Assembly (NCBI GenBank): GCA_009937615.1
Contig: JAACFB010000001.1
Location: 62,001-126,000 of the forward strand
Length of the DNA stretch: 64,000 nt
DNA from: Gammaproteobacteria bacterium
Lineage (GTDB): Bacteria; Pseudomonadota; Gammaproteobacteria; Steroidobacterales; Woeseiaceae
Reading direction: 5' to 3'
Part shown: positions 4,143-11,368 of the stretch, one piece after another
Position numbering within the stretch: the first letter of the stretch is position 1
Layout of the letters: each line of letters begins with the position of its first letter
Notes under the pieces: generated by a model
What the model saw: the letters and a program-made list of their open reading frames with translations, nothing else
Databases searched by the model: none
Told to the model about the DNA's origin: nothing
Position numbers and translations under genes: made by a program

Positions 4143-4287
4143 TGGCGCAAAGTGCCGCATGCCCTGATTTCTGAACTGACCCGGACATGCGACGCGACAC
4201 AGGCTGTCTTTTCGATTAGTGTCGCGCGGGCTTTTCTGCGAAGATTGCCGGGTTCGGTATCGGGCACGAGTCTTGATCAATCAGCGA

Positions 4288-5418
4288 ATGACCATATTCC
4301 GCACTTCGCCGCTGCTGCTGCTGGTGCTGCTTGGCGGTTGCGCAACCCTCGAGGATTTTCTCGACGGAATGCGCACCGACAGCGCAGCGCAGCGCGTGCC
4401 GCTTGCGGAGAGGCCGATCAAAGAGCCGATTCCGCCAAATCATTTCACCCTCGCATCACCGGCCCAGTCCGTCGTCGGCGTTCCGCAGATTGTGTTCGCG
4501 CGGCACGAGGATACCTTGTCCGACCTCGCGCGCACCTATGGCCTCGGTTTCGACGAACTGAAGGCAGCCAATCCAGGCGTCGACCCATGGATGCCCGGTG
4601 CCGGAACGCCTGTCCTGCTGCCAACGCAGTTCGTTTTGCCCGACGTGCCACGTGAGGGCATCGTGCTGAATATCGCGTCCAAGCGCCTGTTCTACTTTCC
4701 GCCCGTGCCTGAGGGTGAGCCGCAAGTGGTGAAGACCTATCCGATCGGTATCGGCCGCGTCGGCTGGGAGACGCCGCTCGGTGCGACAAAGGTCGTTTCC
4801 AAAGCGACCGACCCGCACTGGTACGTGCCCCTGTCGGTGCGCCGTGAACACGCCGAAATGGGCAACCCGTTGCCCGCCGTTGTTCCGCCCGGGCCCGACA
4901 ACCCCCTCGGTGCCCACGTACTCAAACTCGACATGCCCGGCTACCTGATTCACGGCACCAACCAGCCCTATGGCGTCGGCATGCGGGTCAGCCACGGTTG
5001 CGTGCGCCTTTATCCCGAGAATATCGAGTTTCTGTACGAGCTCGTTGAGGTCGGCGAATCAGTGCAGATCATCAACGAGCCATTCCTGATCGGGCAGCTC
5101 GATGGCGAGATTTTCTTCGAGAGCCATCAGCCTCTCGAGGATGATCCGGTCAATCCGGCGGACCGGCTGGACAACCTGTTCGCGCGCCACGAAGAGGCCG
5201 CGGTGATTCGCTTCCGGCAAAGCGACAAGGACCATATGCGGGCGCTGGCGAGCGTGGCCACCGGCGTGCCTGCGCGAGTGTCACAGCACGATGCGGACGA
5301 GGTTCTCGCTCGTGTGGTACGGGTTCGCAATACCGTCGAAGAAGATCCGGAGGCGCCGACGTTGTCGGAAGTACGCGAGATGATTGACGAGGCCGTTCGC
5401 GAAGGCGAGGCCATGTGA
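4288..5418 (+). CDS. LysM and L,D-transpeptidase (YkuD) lipoprotein
   Basis: The protein makes or attaches peptidoglycan crosslinks through an active-site cysteine, as in the ErfK/YbiS/YnhG family. I start it at the ATG 4288 because this gives a lipoprotein signal (LLLLVLLGGC, lipidated C18); an in-frame GTG at 4219 would bury that signal behind 23 residues. Domains: LysM peptidoglycan-binding module about residues 68-113, YkuD catalytic domain about 123-258 with HGTN (222-225) and SHGCVRL (catalytic C238), then an acidic helical tail to 376. Members of this family either form 3-3 crosslinks or link Lpp-like lipoproteins; which applies cannot be told here. Its stop overlaps the GTG of a 45-codon gene. 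Confidence 0.92.
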   Translation: MTIFRTSPLLLLVLLGGCATLEDFLDGMRTDSAAQRVPLAERPIKEPIPPNHFTLASPAQSVVGVPQIVFARHEDTLSDLARTYGLGFDELKAANPGVDPWMPGAGTPVLLPTQFVLPDVPREGIVLNIASKRLFYFPPVPEGEPQVVKTYPIGIGRVGWETPLGATKVVSKATDPHWYVPLSVRREHAEMGNPLPAVVPPGPDNPLGAHVLKLDMPGYLIHGTNQPYGVGMRVSHGCVRLYPENIEFLYELVEVGESVQIINEPFLIGQLDGEIFFESHQPLEDDPVNPADRLDNLFARHEEAAVIRFRQSDKDHMRALASVATGVPARVSQHDADEVLARVVRVRNTVEEDPEAPTLSEVREMIDEAVREGEAM

Positions 5419-5552
5419 GCGAGTGGCTCGACCTGATGCTCGACGAGGTCACGCGCAAGCAGCGCGAGACCCGGGAAGCAGCCGCGGAACAGCAGCGTCG
5501 CTCTCAGCGCGCCGACGACGAAAAAGAGGAAGCGCCTGATCAGTCGAAGTAG
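5415..5552 (+). CDS. Tiny charged protein translationally coupled to the L,D-transpeptidase gene
   Basis: A GTG at 5415 overlaps the transpeptidase stop codon and opens 45 codons, beginning MSEWLDLMLDEVTRKQ and ending EEAPDQSK. The product is a single predicted amphipathic helix rich in Glu, Arg and Gln with an acidic tail; no signal peptide. The overlap of stop and start is a common coupling arrangement. The tail overlaps convergently by 13 bp with the desulfhydrase-like gene. I do not recognise it, and short length keeps confidence moderate. Confidence 0.5.
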   Translation: MSEWLDLMLDEVTRKQRETREAAAEQQRRSQRADDEKEEAPDQSK

Positions 5553-6598
5553 CGGCGAAATTCGTCCGGGAGCCTGACACCGTCACCCGGATTTTCGGTC
5601 GTCGCGGGCAATGGCCGCGAATTGTAGGTATTCCAGAAGAGCAGTGACTGACCGGCCAGCTCGGGCTGCCGGACATCGTGCAGCAGTGCTGCCATCGCCT
5701 TGCCGCTGTAGGTCGTATCGAGCGTCAGGCCGAGCTGTTCCCGGGCAATGCCGATTGCCGCGTCAGTGGCCGCGTCGCTTCGCGCATAGCCGCCCGCGAA
5801 GAATTCGTCCCGAAACCGGATCCTGCTTTTCTGCACGAGATCGGCGGGGATCGTGGCATCCAGGCGACGCATCAACAGCGCTGTTTTGACCATCAGCCGC
5901 TGCAAGGCCCGATGATTCGCGATCCAGTCCGGCGAAACGCGAACGGCATGGACCTCCGTGTGCAGGCCGGCCAACGCCAGGCCGAGTGCCAGTCCGGCCG
6001 CGGTGCCCATCGTGCCTGTAGCCACGTACAGGCGATCGGGCGATTCGGCCGCGCCTGAGGCCAACTGCTCAGCCAGTTCGAGACCGGCGTTGACATGACC
6101 GAGCACGCCGAGCCAGCAGGTTCCGCCCATCGGGATGACCCAGGTTTTCTGGCCCGCCAGGTGCTTTCGCAGCGTGGCGATGCGCTGGCGACGGCTGCCG
6201 CCGTAACGAACGATCTCAGTACCAATCCGCAGGTGCATGTTAAGCATGATTGCAGCTTGCGGCGTTCTTGACTGGTGCGACAGGAAACAGACGCTCTCGA
6301 ATTGTTGCGCGGCTCCGTACAAAGCCGTCGCCAGCGCATGGTTGGAGGCAACCGTACCGAATGTCGCTACGCGCCGGGCATTTCGATCACGAGCGCGCTG
6401 CAACAGGTACTCGAGTTTACGTACCTTGTTGCCGCCATACAGCGCCGCCGTCAGGTCATCACGCTTGATGGCGATGGGCACTGCGTCGGCCCCGTGGGGC
6501 AATAACCGGACTTCCAGTGGCGTTGGCAAATCCGCAAGCCGCAGGCTGGGCACGCGCGCTGCCAGGCGAGGAAACGCATCACTCAAATGATCGGTCAT
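5540..6598 (-). CDS. PLP-dependent D-cysteine desulfhydrase / ACC deaminase family protein
   Basis: A fold-type II pyridoxal-phosphate enzyme of 352 residues. Conserved landmarks are LADLPTPLE near residue 21, IKRDDLT (44-50) and the cofactor-lysine motif GGNKVRKLEY, with K58 the expected Schiff-base lysine, followed by TFGTVASNHALATA binding the substrate carboxylate. The glycine-rich phosphate loop is ATGTMGTAAGLALG. Family members degrade D-cysteine to pyruvate, H2S and ammonia, or cleave 1-aminocyclopropane-1-carboxylate; sequence alone does not settle which. I use ATG 6598 because family proteins begin just before LPTPLE; an upstream in-frame ATG at 6640 would add 14 residues and run into the divergent promoter region. 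Confidence 0.85.
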   Translation of the reverse strand: MTDHLSDAFPRLAARVPSLRLADLPTPLEVRLLPHGADAVPIAIKRDDLTAALYGGNKVRKLEYLLQRARDRNARRVATFGTVASNHALATALYGAAQQFESVCFLSHQSRTPQAAIMLNMHLRIGTEIVRYGGSRRQRIATLRKHLAGQKTWVIPMGGTCWLGVLGHVNAGLELAEQLASGAAESPDRLYVATGTMGTAAGLALGLALAGLHTEVHAVRVSPDWIANHRALQRLMVKTALLMRRLDATIPADLVQKSRIRFRDEFFAGGYARSDAATDAAIGIAREQLGLTLDTTYSGKAMAALLHDVRQPELAGQSLLFWNTYNSRPLPATTENPGDGVRLPDEFRRYFD

Positions 6599-6601
6599 TC
6601 G

Positions 6602-6621
6602 TTGAATAGTATCTAATTCAA
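6602..6621. promoter_or_regulatory. Inverted repeat TTGAAT-N8-ATTCAA, candidate operator
   Basis: A perfect 6-bp inverted repeat (6602-6607 and 6616-6621) sits in the only AT-rich part of the 81-bp divergent gap between the desulfhydrase-like gene and the sheath/GTPase unit. Symmetry and position suit a dimeric repressor acting on one or both promoters. No regulator gene is adjacent. Confidence 0.45.
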
Positions 6622-6679
6622 TAGCATATGGCGCGGCCACTGATTAGAATGGTTGCACGACAATCTGACTGTTGCGGAG

Positions 6680-8209
6680 ATGAACTTGTCAGATGTACTT
6701 GATCGTGGCATCACGGTCACCGAGTCGGGGCCGCTGGATCAGCCTATCGATGTATCTCGCGAGACCACGGCTGCATTTGTCGGACGTGCGCTCCGCGGTC
6801 CCCTGAATGAACCGATACTGATCACCAGTTTCGGCGACTTTCGTCGCCGTTTTGGCGAGGTGTGGTCGCGTTCCAGTCTTGGCCCGGCCGTGCAGCAGTT
6901 TTTCGAACACGGCGGCACGCGCGTCTATATCGTTCGGGTCGCGAACAGCGCGCGCGGCGCAATGGTCTGCCTGCCGGCCAGCGGGTCGGCGCTGTTGCTG
7001 CGAGCACTGGAGCCCGGATCGACCGAGCGCATACGTGTTGCAGTCGACTATGACGGTATCGATGCAGCCGACGAAGAACGCTTTAATCTGACGCTGCAGC
7101 GGGTCAATGCCGCGAACGGGCTCGTCAGTGACCAGGAATTATACCGTCATGCAAGTTTCCGCTCGGAGAGCGACAACTACATTGCCGACCTGATGCTGTC
7201 GTCGACGCTCGCGCGTGTCGTACCGCCCTGGCCGACACACCGTCCCGAGGCGACCTCGTCGGATGTCAACGTATCGATCGATTCTGCCTACGTGCTGCAC
7301 GCACAGGACGGAACGGATGGCCGGGAATTGTCGGACTACGATCTCGTGGGTTCGCGCAAGTCCCGGTCCGGTTTGTTCGCACTGCAGGGCGTTGAGCGAT
7401 TCGACATACTGTACTTGCCGCCGCCAGGCAGGGGACGGGATCTCGGACCGACGTCGGTTCTTGCCGCGGAGCGCTTTTGCCGCGAGCGGGGGGCGATGTT
7501 GATCGTCGATCCGCACAGTGCGTGGTCTGATCGCGCAGACGCCATCAGGAGCATCAAGGAACTCGGCTACGCGAGCCCGAACATGATCGGGTACTTTCCA
7601 CGCATGCGGTATCGTGGCGACAGGGACGGACCGACGCGCGCCGTGGGCGGCGCCATCGCCGGATTGCTCTGCAAGCTGGACAGAAGTCACGGTGCCTGGC
7701 AGGAACCCGGATCGCCAGGGCTCGCATTTAATCGTGGTCTCGTGCCGGCCGTATCGCTCGACGATGCGGGCGGACTGGCCCTGGCCCGCGCGGGTGTGAA
7801 CAGCATCGGCCCCGGTACGCGAGGTATGTCACGATTCTCGGCTACGGTAACGATGGGCCGCGGCAGCGAATCGCGGCGTGAATTTGCGAGTTTGCCCGTG
7901 CGACGCCTGTGCCTGCAGATAATTCATGCGATTGACGAAGCGACGCGGCTGGCCGCGTATGGACCTGGCGACGCAGCCACGCTGGCGCGAATCCGCAGCA
8001 AGATTACGGCGTACTTTTCAGCTCTGGCCGACATGGGCGCCTTGCAGAATGACCGGTTCAACGTACAGTGCGAGGCAGGACTCGGCGCCGAGGGTCGCGG
8101 CATCGCCAAAGGCATCACGATCCTGATCGAGTTTCAGCCGGCAGGTTGCGATCAGCCTCTGGCCATCACGTTGCAGCAGACAGTTGCAGGCTGCAGGCAC
8201 ACTGCCTGA
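6680..8209 (+). CDS. Orphan contractile tail sheath-like protein
   Basis: A 509-residue protein (517 if the TTG at 6653 is used) with the architecture of phage/contractile-injection-system tail sheaths. N-terminal features: ITVTESGPLDQPI, the 'TAAFVGRALRGPLNEPILITSFGDFRRRFG' type segment (about residues 29-57) and FFEHGGTRVYIVRV. The middle holds the sheath core (FDILYLPPPG, ERFCRERGAMLIVDPH). The C terminus has the conserved sheath domain: GVNSI, then LPVRRLCLQIIHAIDEATRLAAYGP-like helix and VQCEAG. No tail tube, baseplate, spike, tape measure or chaperone ATPase gene lies nearby, and flanks are chromosomal, so this is not a prophage. The stop is 2 nt before the next start, tying it to two GTPase genes. 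Function unknown; a cytoplasmic or membrane-docked sheath polymer is a guess. Confidence 0.85.
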   Translation: MNLSDVLDRGITVTESGPLDQPIDVSRETTAAFVGRALRGPLNEPILITSFGDFRRRFGEVWSRSSLGPAVQQFFEHGGTRVYIVRVANSARGAMVCLPASGSALLLRALEPGSTERIRVAVDYDGIDAADEERFNLTLQRVNAANGLVSDQELYRHASFRSESDNYIADLMLSSTLARVVPPWPTHRPEATSSDVNVSIDSAYVLHAQDGTDGRELSDYDLVGSRKSRSGLFALQGVERFDILYLPPPGRGRDLGPTSVLAAERFCRERGAMLIVDPHSAWSDRADAIRSIKELGYASPNMIGYFPRMRYRGDRDGPTRAVGGAIAGLLCKLDRSHGAWQEPGSPGLAFNRGLVPAVSLDDAGGLALARAGVNSIGPGTRGMSRFSATVTMGRGSESRREFASLPVRRLCLQIIHAIDEATRLAAYGPGDAATLARIRSKITAYFSALADMGALQNDRFNVQCEAGLGAEGRGIAKGITILIEFQPAGCDQPLAITLQQTVAGCRHTA

Positions 8210-8211
8210 TC

Positions 8212-9708
8212 ATGAAACTTGATCGCTTCATCCGGGGCGCGATCGCGCTGTTGATTTTGCTGGTCTTCATCATTGCGATAGCCGCGCTGCTGTTCGTTAC
8301 CGAATCAGCGCTTAATGTCTGGGATCGGCTGATCGAGGGTCCCCGCTGGCTGTTGTTCGGCTACCTGGTCGTAATGGCGTTACTCGCCGGTCTCGCCCTG
8401 TGGTTGATCTGGCGCCTCGTTGTTCGCCGCAAAGTCGGGCCGGGTCGCGCCAAGCCAGCAAACAAGCTGACGCGTTCCGAGATTGAGCAGCGTATGCGTG
8501 CGGCCGAGGCGGTTGGTGTCGACACCAGCGAGGTGCAGAGGGAACTGACGGAACTGGCGTCACGTCAGCGCGCCGGCTCGGTCCATCTTTGTTTTTTCGG
8601 CGAAATCAGTACCGGTAAGAGTTCATTGATCAAGGCCCTGGTTCCTGCTGCCGACGTCGCCGTGGATGTGGTTGGCGGATCGACCACCGATGCCCGGCAC
8701 TACCGCTGGCGCGGCAGCGGCGGTGCCGAGATCTTGCTCACGGATGTGCCGGGAACGGGCGGACATGAGGCAGGACTCGACGAAGTCGCGATCGAGGAGG
8801 CGCGGCGCTCGCACGTTGTCCTGTTTGTCTGCGACGGTGATCTGACGCGCGCGGAAGCCGACGTAGTCAGACGCTTGCTGGCGCTAGGCAAACCGCTGGT
8901 GCTGGTGCTGAACAAGTCCGATCGCTTCGATGTCGAGGAGCAGGCCGCGCTGATGCAGCGCCTGCTCGAACGCATGGACGGCCTGGGCGGAACGATCTCG
9001 CGTGACCGAGTGGTAGCCGTGTCGGCCGGCGGTGAAATTGATGTCATCGAGCGCAGCCCGGATGGCTCGGAGAACGTCTCGCGGCGCCGGCGTCCGGCGG
9101 ACGTCGGCGTGCTGGTCGTCGCGATCAATCGACTGCTCGCGGCAGATGCCGAAACGATCGATGCACAGCGTGAGCGGGCCGTCTTTCGGCTCGCGGCTGA
9201 CAAACTGGCTGAGGCGGAGTCCGAATACAGGGTTCAGCGCTCGGAGCAGATCATTCGCAGTTCGACGCGCAAAGCCGTCATCGGCGCACTTGCCGCTGTA
9301 AGCCCCGGTACCGACGTATTGATCCAGGGCTATATCGGCACGGCAATGACACAGGAGCTGTGCAAGCTCTATGGCGCTGCGCCCCGGGATCTCGATATCG
9401 AGGAATTCCTGAACCTGAGCCAGAGTCGTGTCGGACGGGCATTGCCGCTATCGCTCGCGGTCGCCGGAAACGGGCTGAAAGCGTTTCCCGGCCTTGGCAC
9501 TGTCGCGGGCGGGCTGGTGCACGCGGTCGCTTACGGCCTTATCTTCGATGCGCTTGGCCGCAGTCTCGTGCTCACATTATCCCGGCACGGTAAGCTGTTA
9601 CCCGAGGCGGCCGCGAAGGAATTCGAGGAAGGCATCAGTGAATATTTTCAAGCGGGCGTTGTCCGCGTTGCCAAAATGGCCCTGGACCAGGACGGCGGTA
9701 AAGACTGA
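8212..9708 (+). CDS. Membrane-anchored P-loop GTPase with DUF697/YcjF-like C-terminal region
   Basis: A 498-residue GTPase. Two N-terminal transmembrane helices lie at about residues 9-28 and 46-70. After a basic linker comes a Ras-like/dynamin-type G domain: G1 GEISTGKS (130-137), G3 DVPG (178-181), G4 NKSD (234-237), and a likely G5 VSAGG. The C-terminal third (from about residue 375) has glycine-rich hydrophobic helices (PGTDVLIQGYIGTAMTQELCKLYG; FPGLGTVAGGLVHAVAYGLIFDALG) like the DUF697 region of YcjF-type proteins, which can insert in membranes. The ATG at 8212 follows the sheath stop after 2 nt; a longer in-frame start at 8068 overlaps the sheath gene and is rejected. It probably works with the second GTPase and the sheath protein; its cellular task is unknown. 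Confidence 0.85.
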   Translation: MKLDRFIRGAIALLILLVFIIAIAALLFVTESALNVWDRLIEGPRWLLFGYLVVMALLAGLALWLIWRLVVRRKVGPGRAKPANKLTRSEIEQRMRAAEAVGVDTSEVQRELTELASRQRAGSVHLCFFGEISTGKSSLIKALVPAADVAVDVVGGSTTDARHYRWRGSGGAEILLTDVPGTGGHEAGLDEVAIEEARRSHVVLFVCDGDLTRAEADVVRRLLALGKPLVLVLNKSDRFDVEEQAALMQRLLERMDGLGGTISRDRVVAVSAGGEIDVIERSPDGSENVSRRRRPADVGVLVVAINRLLAADAETIDAQRERAVFRLAADKLAEAESEYRVQRSEQIIRSSTRKAVIGALAAVSPGTDVLIQGYIGTAMTQELCKLYGAAPRDLDIEEFLNLSQSRVGRALPLSLAVAGNGLKAFPGLGTVAGGLVHAVAYGLIFDALGRSLVLTLSRHGKLLPEAAAKEFEEGISEYFQAGVVRVAKMALDQDGGKD

Positions 9709-10996
9709 CGTTGGCGATGGTGGTTCCGACCATCTGACGCTGGCGCGGGAGAGTCTGCGCGAATTAGTCAGCGATTCGCGTCTGCCCGACGGCGTGCGCG
9801 AGTCTCTCGCGAACGACTATGCCGCCGTTAAGGCCATGCTGGAAAAACTCGAGCACGGCCACTTGCACCTGGCTGCTTTCGGTCGCGTCAGCACCGGTAA
9901 GTCATCGCTGCTGAATGCACTGATCGGCGAGGCGGTGTTTACGGTCAGTCCTCTGCATGGCGAAACGCGGCAGTCGTCGATGCGGCCCTGGAACCCGGTC
10001 GAAACCGGCGGCGTATACCTGATTGATACGCCCGGCCTCGACGAAGCCGGAGGCGAGCAGCGCGAGGCGATGGCGCGGGAGGTGGCGAGCAGGTCCGACC
10101 TCGTTATTTTCGTGCTGGACAGCGACATCACGGATACGGAGTTGGCGTCGCTGCGCACGTTGCTGGCGCAAGGTAGGCCGGTCGTCGTCGCCCTGAACAA
10201 GAGCGACCTCTTTACTGCCGATGAACAGCGGGCACTGCTGCAATCGGTGCGCGACAAGACGGCCGGCCTCGTTGCCGCCGAAAATGTACTTGCCGTGTCG
10301 GCTCAGCCGCGGCCGCAGACTGTCGTCGAAGTGAACGAGCGCGGCGAGGAGACGCTCAGGGACAGGGACCGCTCGCCGGAGATCGAGTCGTTGAGGCTGC
10401 GCCTGTGGGAGATTCTCGATACCGAGGGCAAGACACTGGCAGCGCTTAACGCGAGCCTGTTCGCGGCGGCTCTCAGCGATCAGGTCGGGCAGCGCATCCT
10501 TGCCGCACGCCGCGAACTCGGTGATCGGCTCGTGCGCACTTACTGCGTCGGCAAGGGCATCGCGGTCGCTTTCAACCCGGTGCCCGTTGCGGACCTGTTC
10601 GCGGCAGCCTTCATCGACGTCGGCATGGTCGTGCACCTGTCGCGCGTTTATGACCTGCCGCTCAGTCAGAAGGAAGCCGGGTCATTGGTCAAAGTGATTG
10701 TGGCCGAGTCCGCGGCTCTGATGGGCACCGTATGGGCGCTGCATTTTGTCTCGAGCGCTCTCAAAGTCGGCACCGTCGGCCTGTCGACGCTCGTGACGGC
10801 GGGTGCACAGGGTGCGATCGCGTACTACAGTACCTACGTCGTCGGCCAGGTCGCAGCGGAGTACCTGGGTAAAGGCAAATCGTGGGGCGCGGGCGGCCCG
10901 AAGCATGTCGTCCAACAGATTCTCGACAGCCTCGATCGCGACACGGTGCTTGCGGATGCCAGGCGTGAAATCCAGGCGCGCCTCGGCGTTGGCTGA
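9638..10996 (+). CDS. Second P-loop GTPase with hydrophobic C-terminal domain
   Basis: A 452-residue paralogue of the preceding GTPase without the N-terminal membrane anchor. Motifs: G1 GRVSTGKS (82-89), G3 DTPG (130-133) and G4 NKSD (187-190). The C-terminal region (FNPVPVADLFAAAFIDVGMVVHLS; ESAALMGTVWALHFVSSALKVG; GAQGAIAYYSTYVVG) again resembles DUF697 membrane-associating helices. The start decision rests on a strong ribosome binding site, GAGGAAGG at 9625-9632, 5 nt before GTG 9638; this lies inside the first GTPase gene, so the two overlap by 71 nt in different frames. An earlier in-frame ATG at 9494 lacks such a site. Paired, overlapping paralogues suggest a hetero-oligomeric membrane GTPase. 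Confidence 0.83.
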   Translation: MNIFKRALSALPKWPWTRTAVKTDVGDGGSDHLTLARESLRELVSDSRLPDGVRESLANDYAAVKAMLEKLEHGHLHLAAFGRVSTGKSSLLNALIGEAVFTVSPLHGETRQSSMRPWNPVETGGVYLIDTPGLDEAGGEQREAMAREVASRSDLVIFVLDSDITDTELASLRTLLAQGRPVVVALNKSDLFTADEQRALLQSVRDKTAGLVAAENVLAVSAQPRPQTVVEVNERGEETLRDRDRSPEIESLRLRLWEILDTEGKTLAALNASLFAAALSDQVGQRILAARRELGDRLVRTYCVGKGIAVAFNPVPVADLFAAAFIDVGMVVHLSRVYDLPLSQKEAGSLVKVIVAESAALMGTVWALHFVSSALKVGTVGLSTLVTAGAQGAIAYYSTYVVGQVAAEYLGKGKSWGAGGPKHVVQQILDSLDRDTVLADARREIQARLGVG

Positions 10997-11008: not shown

Positions 11009-11368
11009 ATGGACCGCATCGCACGCACACGCCGGATTCTGGACATGGTTCGCGAAATTCCGGAAGGACGCGTTGCGAGTTATGGCCAGGTCGCCGAACT
11101 GGCCGGGATACCGCGCGGGGCCCGCCAGGTCGGCCGGGCACTCGGGAGCCAGCCCGACGGGGACGACGTGCCGTGGCACCGCGTGATCCAGGCATCGGGC
11201 AGGATCGCTTTTCCCGAGGGCAGCGCACAGTATGATGAACAAAGCAGGCTTCTTAGGATGGAAAACGTTGCAATTGTCGCCGGCCGGATCGACATGCGGC
11301 AGTTTCGCTGGCAGCCCGATCTCGATGAGTTGTTGTGGAAGCCGACGCCTGCCTGGGACGAAGAGTGA
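11009..11368 (+). CDS. Alkyltransferase-like (ATL) MGMT-family DNA damage protein
   Basis: A 119-residue protein with the DNA-binding domain of O6-methylguanine methyltransferases: VASYGQVAELAG and RGARQVGRALG, the helix-turn-helix and arginine-finger region. The alkyl-acceptor motif PCHRV is changed to PWHRV (W56), as in ATL proteins, which bind O6-alkylguanine without repairing it and flag the lesion to nucleotide excision repair. The start at 11009 is 12 bp after the second GTPase stop, so it may be carried on the same transcript, but a functional link is not implied. Expected site is the nucleoid. Family call is firm. Confidence 0.9.
   Translation: MDRIARTRRILDMVREIPEGRVASYGQVAELAGIPRGARQVGRALGSQPDGDDVPWHRVIQASGRIAFPEGSAQYDEQSRLLRMENVAIVAGRIDMRQFRWQPDLDELLWKPTPAWDEE

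Follow-up and report, generated by a model that had tools for sequence, protein, structure and literature searches.

A tail-sheath protein without a tube, conserved across most of the order that includes Woeseiaceae and probably repurposed

Contractile sheaths are known as parts that work with a tube, and their strand-exchange arms are conserved in working sheaths. In known sheaths, passages of PMC9230969 describe a core made of N- and C-terminal portions that appears to serve tube contact and assembly, and other domains that vary and are moderately conserved additions to this core. Among described systems, the sheath of the Streptomyces coelicolor injection system (8bky, 8bl4, 9gtp, 9gts) is a close match to the protein described here: the model of our protein superposes on 9gts with Z 34.4 and rmsd 2.5 over 323 aligned positions, and a 17-row sheath profile finds 8bky at E 2e-55. 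However, the Streptomyces sheath belongs, by its entry titles, to a sheath-tube module, whereas our protein is an orphan with no tube match in nearly all genomes. The contracted sheath of Halogeometricum borinquense (9ezm) is the best Foldseek match (E 8.1e-27) and resembles the orphan in its outer domain as well, but it is part of an injection system that mediates antagonism, as stated in an excerpt of PMC11566945. The nearest full-length homologues outside the order are gammaproteobacterial tube-type sheaths (loci L123-L131 and L142). Unlike the orphan, these adjoin a tube gene, conserve their arms and C-terminal domain, and vary in the outer domain.

The orphan sheath gene lies in a window of 64,000 nucleotides, by which we mean the whole stretch of DNA analyzed (G000, contig C1, positions 62001-126000). 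The draft genome G000 comprises 3.36 Mb and is 89% complete. Three open reading frames, for the sheath and two GTPases, were verified at the positions given in a first-pass annotation. The locus contains the following features:

4219-5418, plus strand: YkuD L,D-transpeptidase with a weak LysM match, the commonest close neighbor of the orphan sheath
5540-6640, minus strand: PALP-family enzyme, oriented divergently relative to the sheath
6680-8209, plus strand: orphan tail-sheath protein of 509 aa (PHROG_23, PDB, AlphaFold/Foldseek and profile matches), the sole sheath match in G000
8185-8211, plus strand: likely deletion scar, where the last sheath codons and a 2-nt gap resemble (by eye) the L031 DNA just upstream of GTPase 1
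8212-9708, plus strand: GTPase 1, a neighbor with an MMR_HSR1 domain and two N-terminal hydrophobic stretches seen by eye
9638-10996, plus strand: GTPase 2, a neighbor with MMR_HSR1 plus DUF697, overlapping GTPase 1 by 71 nt

The sheath frame opens with ATG at 6680 and ends with its stop at 8209; an in-frame TTG at 6686 marks the point where the sheath starts of relatives align. PHROG_23 (tail sheath) matched residues 5-460 with E 9.7e-21, and a sequence search against PDB gave 9ezm with E 4.4e-19. Two Pfam sheath models scored under their curated cut-offs (20.5 vs 27 bits and 16.6 vs 26.9 bits), PF17482 matched weakly at residues 401-459, and NCBIfam assigned no family to the protein. An AlphaFold model built from a 24-sequence alignment had pLDDT 85.5 and pTM 0.84, and its comparison with solved sheaths gave the values cited above. 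Homology to sheaths is thus beyond chance by sequence, profile and structure-model matches alike, and the protein is confirmed as a tail sheath in both fold and sequence family. The first-pass annotation had recognized a sheath-like protein with both core and C-terminal domain, and the check it proposed, a search of 6680-8209 against sheath profiles, upheld the homology (PHROG_23 and the PDB profile match at E 2e-55, together with the fold Z of 34.4).

Named relatives of the sheath came from Woeseiaceae, Woeseia, or gammaproteobacterial and proteobacterial assemblies less closely classified. Neither a signal peptide nor a membrane stretch was seen by eye in the sheath. Recent phage origin was considered and rejected, since none of 24 pattern matches in viral contigs was confirmed as a relative; in addition, tblastn at 1e-5 found no relatives among 50,697 phage records. 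Assignment to a defense system was also rejected: PADLOC reported nothing for the sheath, and its matches for the GTPases were to Leo and mad8.

The sheath is widespread in the order. A protein search detected it in 92 of 107 family genomes, including 42 of the 45 good ones, and 13 of the 15 family genomes with no match have sizes of at most 2.0 Mb; genus g10 contributes all nine of its genomes to this group. By profile search, a match was present in 188 of the 246 genomes of the order, and in 147 of the 179 that are good; the 188 include G483, with only a weak tube-type match, and a few fragments. Most order genomes are drafts. The match was single in 181 of the 188 carriers. Of the 369 genomes sampled from the class, 45 had a match, and the seven strongest full-length matches outside the order (L123-L129; E 4e-88 to 5e-102) each adjoin a tube gene.

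A search with PF06841 (tube) and PF04865 (baseplate) yielded no match in G000, 89% complete. Thus, the first-pass remark that no tube or baseplate gene is near, and its call to check the rest of the genome, led to the same result for these two families across the whole assembly. PF06841 matched in 5 of 107 family genomes and 10 of 246 order genomes, counts that a tube unlike PF06841 would escape. Eight of the ten tube genomes fall among the 188 sheath carriers, leaving 180 genomes with a sheath match and no tube match. In the seven genomes with both an orphan sheath and a tube, the two were on different contigs. Baseplate_J was found in 7 order genomes, G000 not among them; this probe matched only three of the ten tube genomes (G099, G061 and G483) and missed the other seven, so its absence is weak evidence. 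A tube encoded with the sheath, the mark of a contractile injection system or a myophage tail, was accordingly found neither in G000 nor in more than 10 of the 246 order genomes (PF06841). These data support the conclusion that the sheath is an orphan, with no tube gene in G000 and in nearly all related genomes.

The sheath might instead serve a complete but dispersed contractile system whose tube is too divergent to be found. Its conservation over the order, the incompleteness of the drafts and the restriction of the search to PF06841 and PF04865 would fit such a system. However, PF06841 detected the tube in all three tube-type control genomes, in none of six genomes of distant orphan carriers and in few order genomes, and the assembly domain of the orphan is relaxed, which makes this explanation highly improbable.

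In a tree of 44 sheaths, chosen from a 77-row alignment, a branch with 100/100 support divided the set into 32 orphans and 12 tube-type sheaths. For the orphan pairs computed (77-96% amino-acid identity), dN/dS was 0.04-0.15, with several dS values above 1.5 and near saturation. Judged by these ratios, the orphan sheath is under strong purifying selection and is a functional gene. The idea that the gene is a remnant in decay, left over from an injection system since lost, draws on the truncated copy in G066, where about 238 sheath residues were matched, and on the loss of the last codons from the window copy; it is already contradicted by the strong purifying selection and the retention in 188 of 246 genomes, and is barely credible. 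In locus L066 (9947-11246), the sheath gene is cut off after about 238 matching residues and followed by the hydrolase gene, and the GTPases and the MGMT-like gene are absent.

We also observed a second solitary sheath, of the tube type, in two genomes of the same genus (L071, G097 contig C3, 9188-10708, plus strand; L072, G076 contig C36, 8831-10360, minus strand). Both were placed with the tube type by sequence. The tube gene of L072 matches only 64 of 134 positions, and the L071 genome has no tube match. The pair had a dN/dS of 0.21, and here the machine seems to have been lost more recently.

Constraint along the orphan chain differed from that of tube-type sheaths in three regions:

6701-6769, plus strand: N-terminal arm (residues 8-30), under relaxed constraint in orphans, with a mean identity between families of 0.24 vs 0.72 in the tube type
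6941-7372, plus strand: outer domain (residues 88-231), with stronger conservation in orphans than in the tube type; holds R119, D125, Q140, R141 and Q152
7580-8188, plus strand: C-terminal assembly domain plus arm (residues 301-503), likewise under relaxed constraint in orphans (identity 0.21-0.33 vs 0.50-0.68)

In tube-type sheaths, inter-family identity was 0.72 in the N-terminal arm, 0.50-0.68 from residue 300 onward and 0.25-0.36 in residues 31-300; in orphans, it was 0.37-0.47 in residues 31-300 and 0.21-0.33 in the arms and C-terminal part. When residues 31-300 were set against the arms plus residues 400-503, mean identities were 0.41 and 0.27 for 20 orphans (of 60 rows, chosen to spread over families) and 0.30 and 0.66 for 9 tube-type sheaths (of 14 rows, with L071, L124, L125, L126 and the second sheath of L073 left out), the latter a small set that includes L072 with its truncated tube gene. 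Orphans had an outer-to-assembly ratio of 1.52, tube-type sheaths one of 0.46, and the resulting ratio of ratios, 3.3, was reached in none of 2000 label shuffles, which ignore relatedness. Leaving out each family in turn hardly changed the inversion. R119, D125, Q140, R141 and Q152 were each present in at least 95% of the 60 orphan rows and were not conserved in tube-type rows. Orphans thus reverse the published emphasis, with the outer domain conserved and the assembly core relaxed, a pattern to be anticipated after loss of the tube and a shift of the working surface to the outside. Folded alone, the outer domain matched that of 9ezm with Z 10.8. It is probably not an instance of another known fold: among the matches listed, only sheaths reached Z 5 or more, so that these matches give no clue to a ligand.

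The strand-exchange arms of orphans are not conserved as in working sheaths (0.24 and 0.21 vs 0.72 and 0.68), but some key residues are kept: G10 of the arm was retained in 95% and I23 in 100% of the 20 orphan rows, several C-terminal core residues also remain, and the C-terminal domain was confidently folded in the AlphaFold model. Self-assembly could therefore still occur. Accordingly, we considered that the orphan still polymerizes without a tube, in the manner of T4 gp18 polysheaths, to form a tubule or scaffold in the cytosol, with cargo bound by its conserved outer face. Retention of the full domain set and arm positions, preservation of the arm motif GITVTE in most Woeseiaceae, and the tendency of recombinant gp18 toward polysheaths, mentioned in a portion of PMC9230969, are all consistent with such a polymer. 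However, identity in the arm and C-terminal regions amounts to only one third to little over half of the tube-type level, and the motif is degenerate in L069, L078 and several rows of family f2. We consider this polymer a plausible but rather unlikely alternative.

With regard to the GTPases, GTPase 1 starts with ATG at 8212, 2 nt past the sheath stop, and GTPase 2 with GTG at 9638, preceded by GAGGAA; the two overlap at 9638-9708, and an overlap is also kept in relatives. The 2-nt gap, 71-nt overlap, two N-terminal helices and ribosome binding site reported in the first-pass annotation were all recovered, in the reading frames, in the hydrophobic stretches and in GAGGAA. Both proteins matched the slr1306 model (84 and 131 bits vs a curated cut-off of 490) and the LeoA/LeoBC models. 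The likeness of these two neighbors to slr1306-family and LeoA-like GTPases consists in such model matches; with slr1306 scores far under the cut-off, we claim no membership.

The same annotation had read the three genes as an operon in which a sheath polymer is worked by two membrane GTPases. In its favor are the adjacency in the window, a GTPase within 100 nt of the sheath in L038, L043, L065 and L081, and loci of f1, f186 and f191 in which a GTPase follows the sheath on its strand, an order that coordinates also indicate for other genomes, G484 and G540 among them. But the two genes part company at the family level. GTPase 1 was found in 88 of 107 family genomes and in 50 of 369 class genomes; 48 of these 50 lie outside the family, and 39 of the 48 have no sheath match. 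In the order, 52 of 167 genomes had GTPase 1, and none of these matches was from f2 or f3, which carry the sheath (the number of f2 and f3 genomes among the 167 is not given). G477, G482 and G490 (f183 and f188) likewise have a sheath and no GTPase 1 match, and f194 and f195 show the reverse, GTPase 1 with no sheath match. Among 65 orphan loci, 27 had a GTPase in reach: in 5 of them it was on the sheath strand and no more than 400 nt away, and in the other 22 the distance was 1.8 to 6.8 kb. Not included in this survey were 15 loci that were fragments or held tube-type sheaths, 5 that were duplicates or pieces of flank, and L051 and L082, both copies of the G046 locus. Since many loci end at contig ends, these counts are minimum values for linkage. 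The complete genome G105 has about 35 kb between sheath and GTPase 1, and G545 about 1.9 Mb.

Intervening genes were DUF885 alone in L031 and, in L036, an ECF sigma factor, DUF1800, DUF1501 and DUF885 among others. The latter form a cassette (L036, 11627-17803), with a Tat signal on the DUF1501 protein, and similar clusters recur in relatives. The window sheath lacks the C-terminal tail found in close relatives, and with the resemblance of 8185-8211 to L031, its closeness to the GTPases is likely a deletion scar and a local accident. A loose regional order is old, as several families have the GTPases downstream of the sheath and on its strand. One locus in G158, of an unrelated family (L142, 1-7697), has a tube and a tube-type sheath beside a GTPase pair whose GTPase 1 is split in two frames. 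This independent case would speak for a sheath-GTPase system, but it was unrepeated: no sheath was near the pair in either of the two relatives that have it. Mining of other neighborhoods for the sheath-GTPase-GTPase arrangement, also proposed in the first pass, thus revealed no conserved linkage, and with only 5 of 27 loci within 400 nt, the family-level dissociation and the likely scar, we regard the sheath-GTPase system as very unlikely. What survives of the first interpretation is an orphan sheath in a tube-less genome; the operon with the GTPases does not.

No other gene emerged as a fixed partner, as no neighbor was common to all 65 orphan loci. Even YkuD, the most frequent, lay within 3 kb in 38 of them, and in 7 it was on the sheath strand and no more than 400 nt away; it was present in loci of f1, f2, f3, f183 and f184, and none was seen near the sheath in the loci read from f185, f186, f187, f188, f190 and f191. 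Downstream of the GTPases, the window encodes an MGMT-like protein (11009-11368, plus strand) with PWHR at the position of PCHR, the active-site motif of methyltransferases. With this replacement, the product is probably an alkyltransferase-like protein. No RNA families or tRNAs were found in the window at threshold.

Considering the fold, the missing tube, the presence in most of the order, the purifying selection and the inverted constraint together, we infer that the sheath has probably been repurposed and works through its outer domain rather than as a syringe part. An injection-system sheath gene would have been captured early in a bacterial order, lost its tube and then been kept by descent as a solitary gene. 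Its product would no longer be part of a contracting syringe and may act in the cytosol through the outer domain, where R119, D125, Q140, R141 and Q152 would form part of a putative binding surface for a partner or ligand not encoded beside the sheath. The old assembly arms may now serve only folding or loose self-association, and the GTPases in the window would be neighbors brought close by deletion.

In the open-licence literature, we found nothing linking Woeseia to a phage tail sheath or Woeseiaceae to contractile injection, and nothing on point for Steroidobacter with a tail sheath or, among the matches listed, for other sheath topics; the word sheath was absent from the main text of the Woeseiales papers examined. 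The sheath family itself is known; as far as this literature shows, an order-wide, tube-less sheath with reversed constraint has not been described.

A strongly selected sheath that has no tube and an inverted pattern of constraint is a natural experiment on what this fold can do besides contraction. It seems likely that the whole order, Woeseiaceae included, runs a cellular function on a sheath that has shed tube and contraction and whose outer domain is the active, conserved surface. If true, this would be an order-wide exaptation of the sheath fold outside injection. The order of Woeseiaceae is reported to make up 1-22% of the 16S sequences retrieved from marine sediments (PMC7082342). Our analysis flags an unstudied gene that is common in Woeseiaceae, and its function could be tested in a cultured member.
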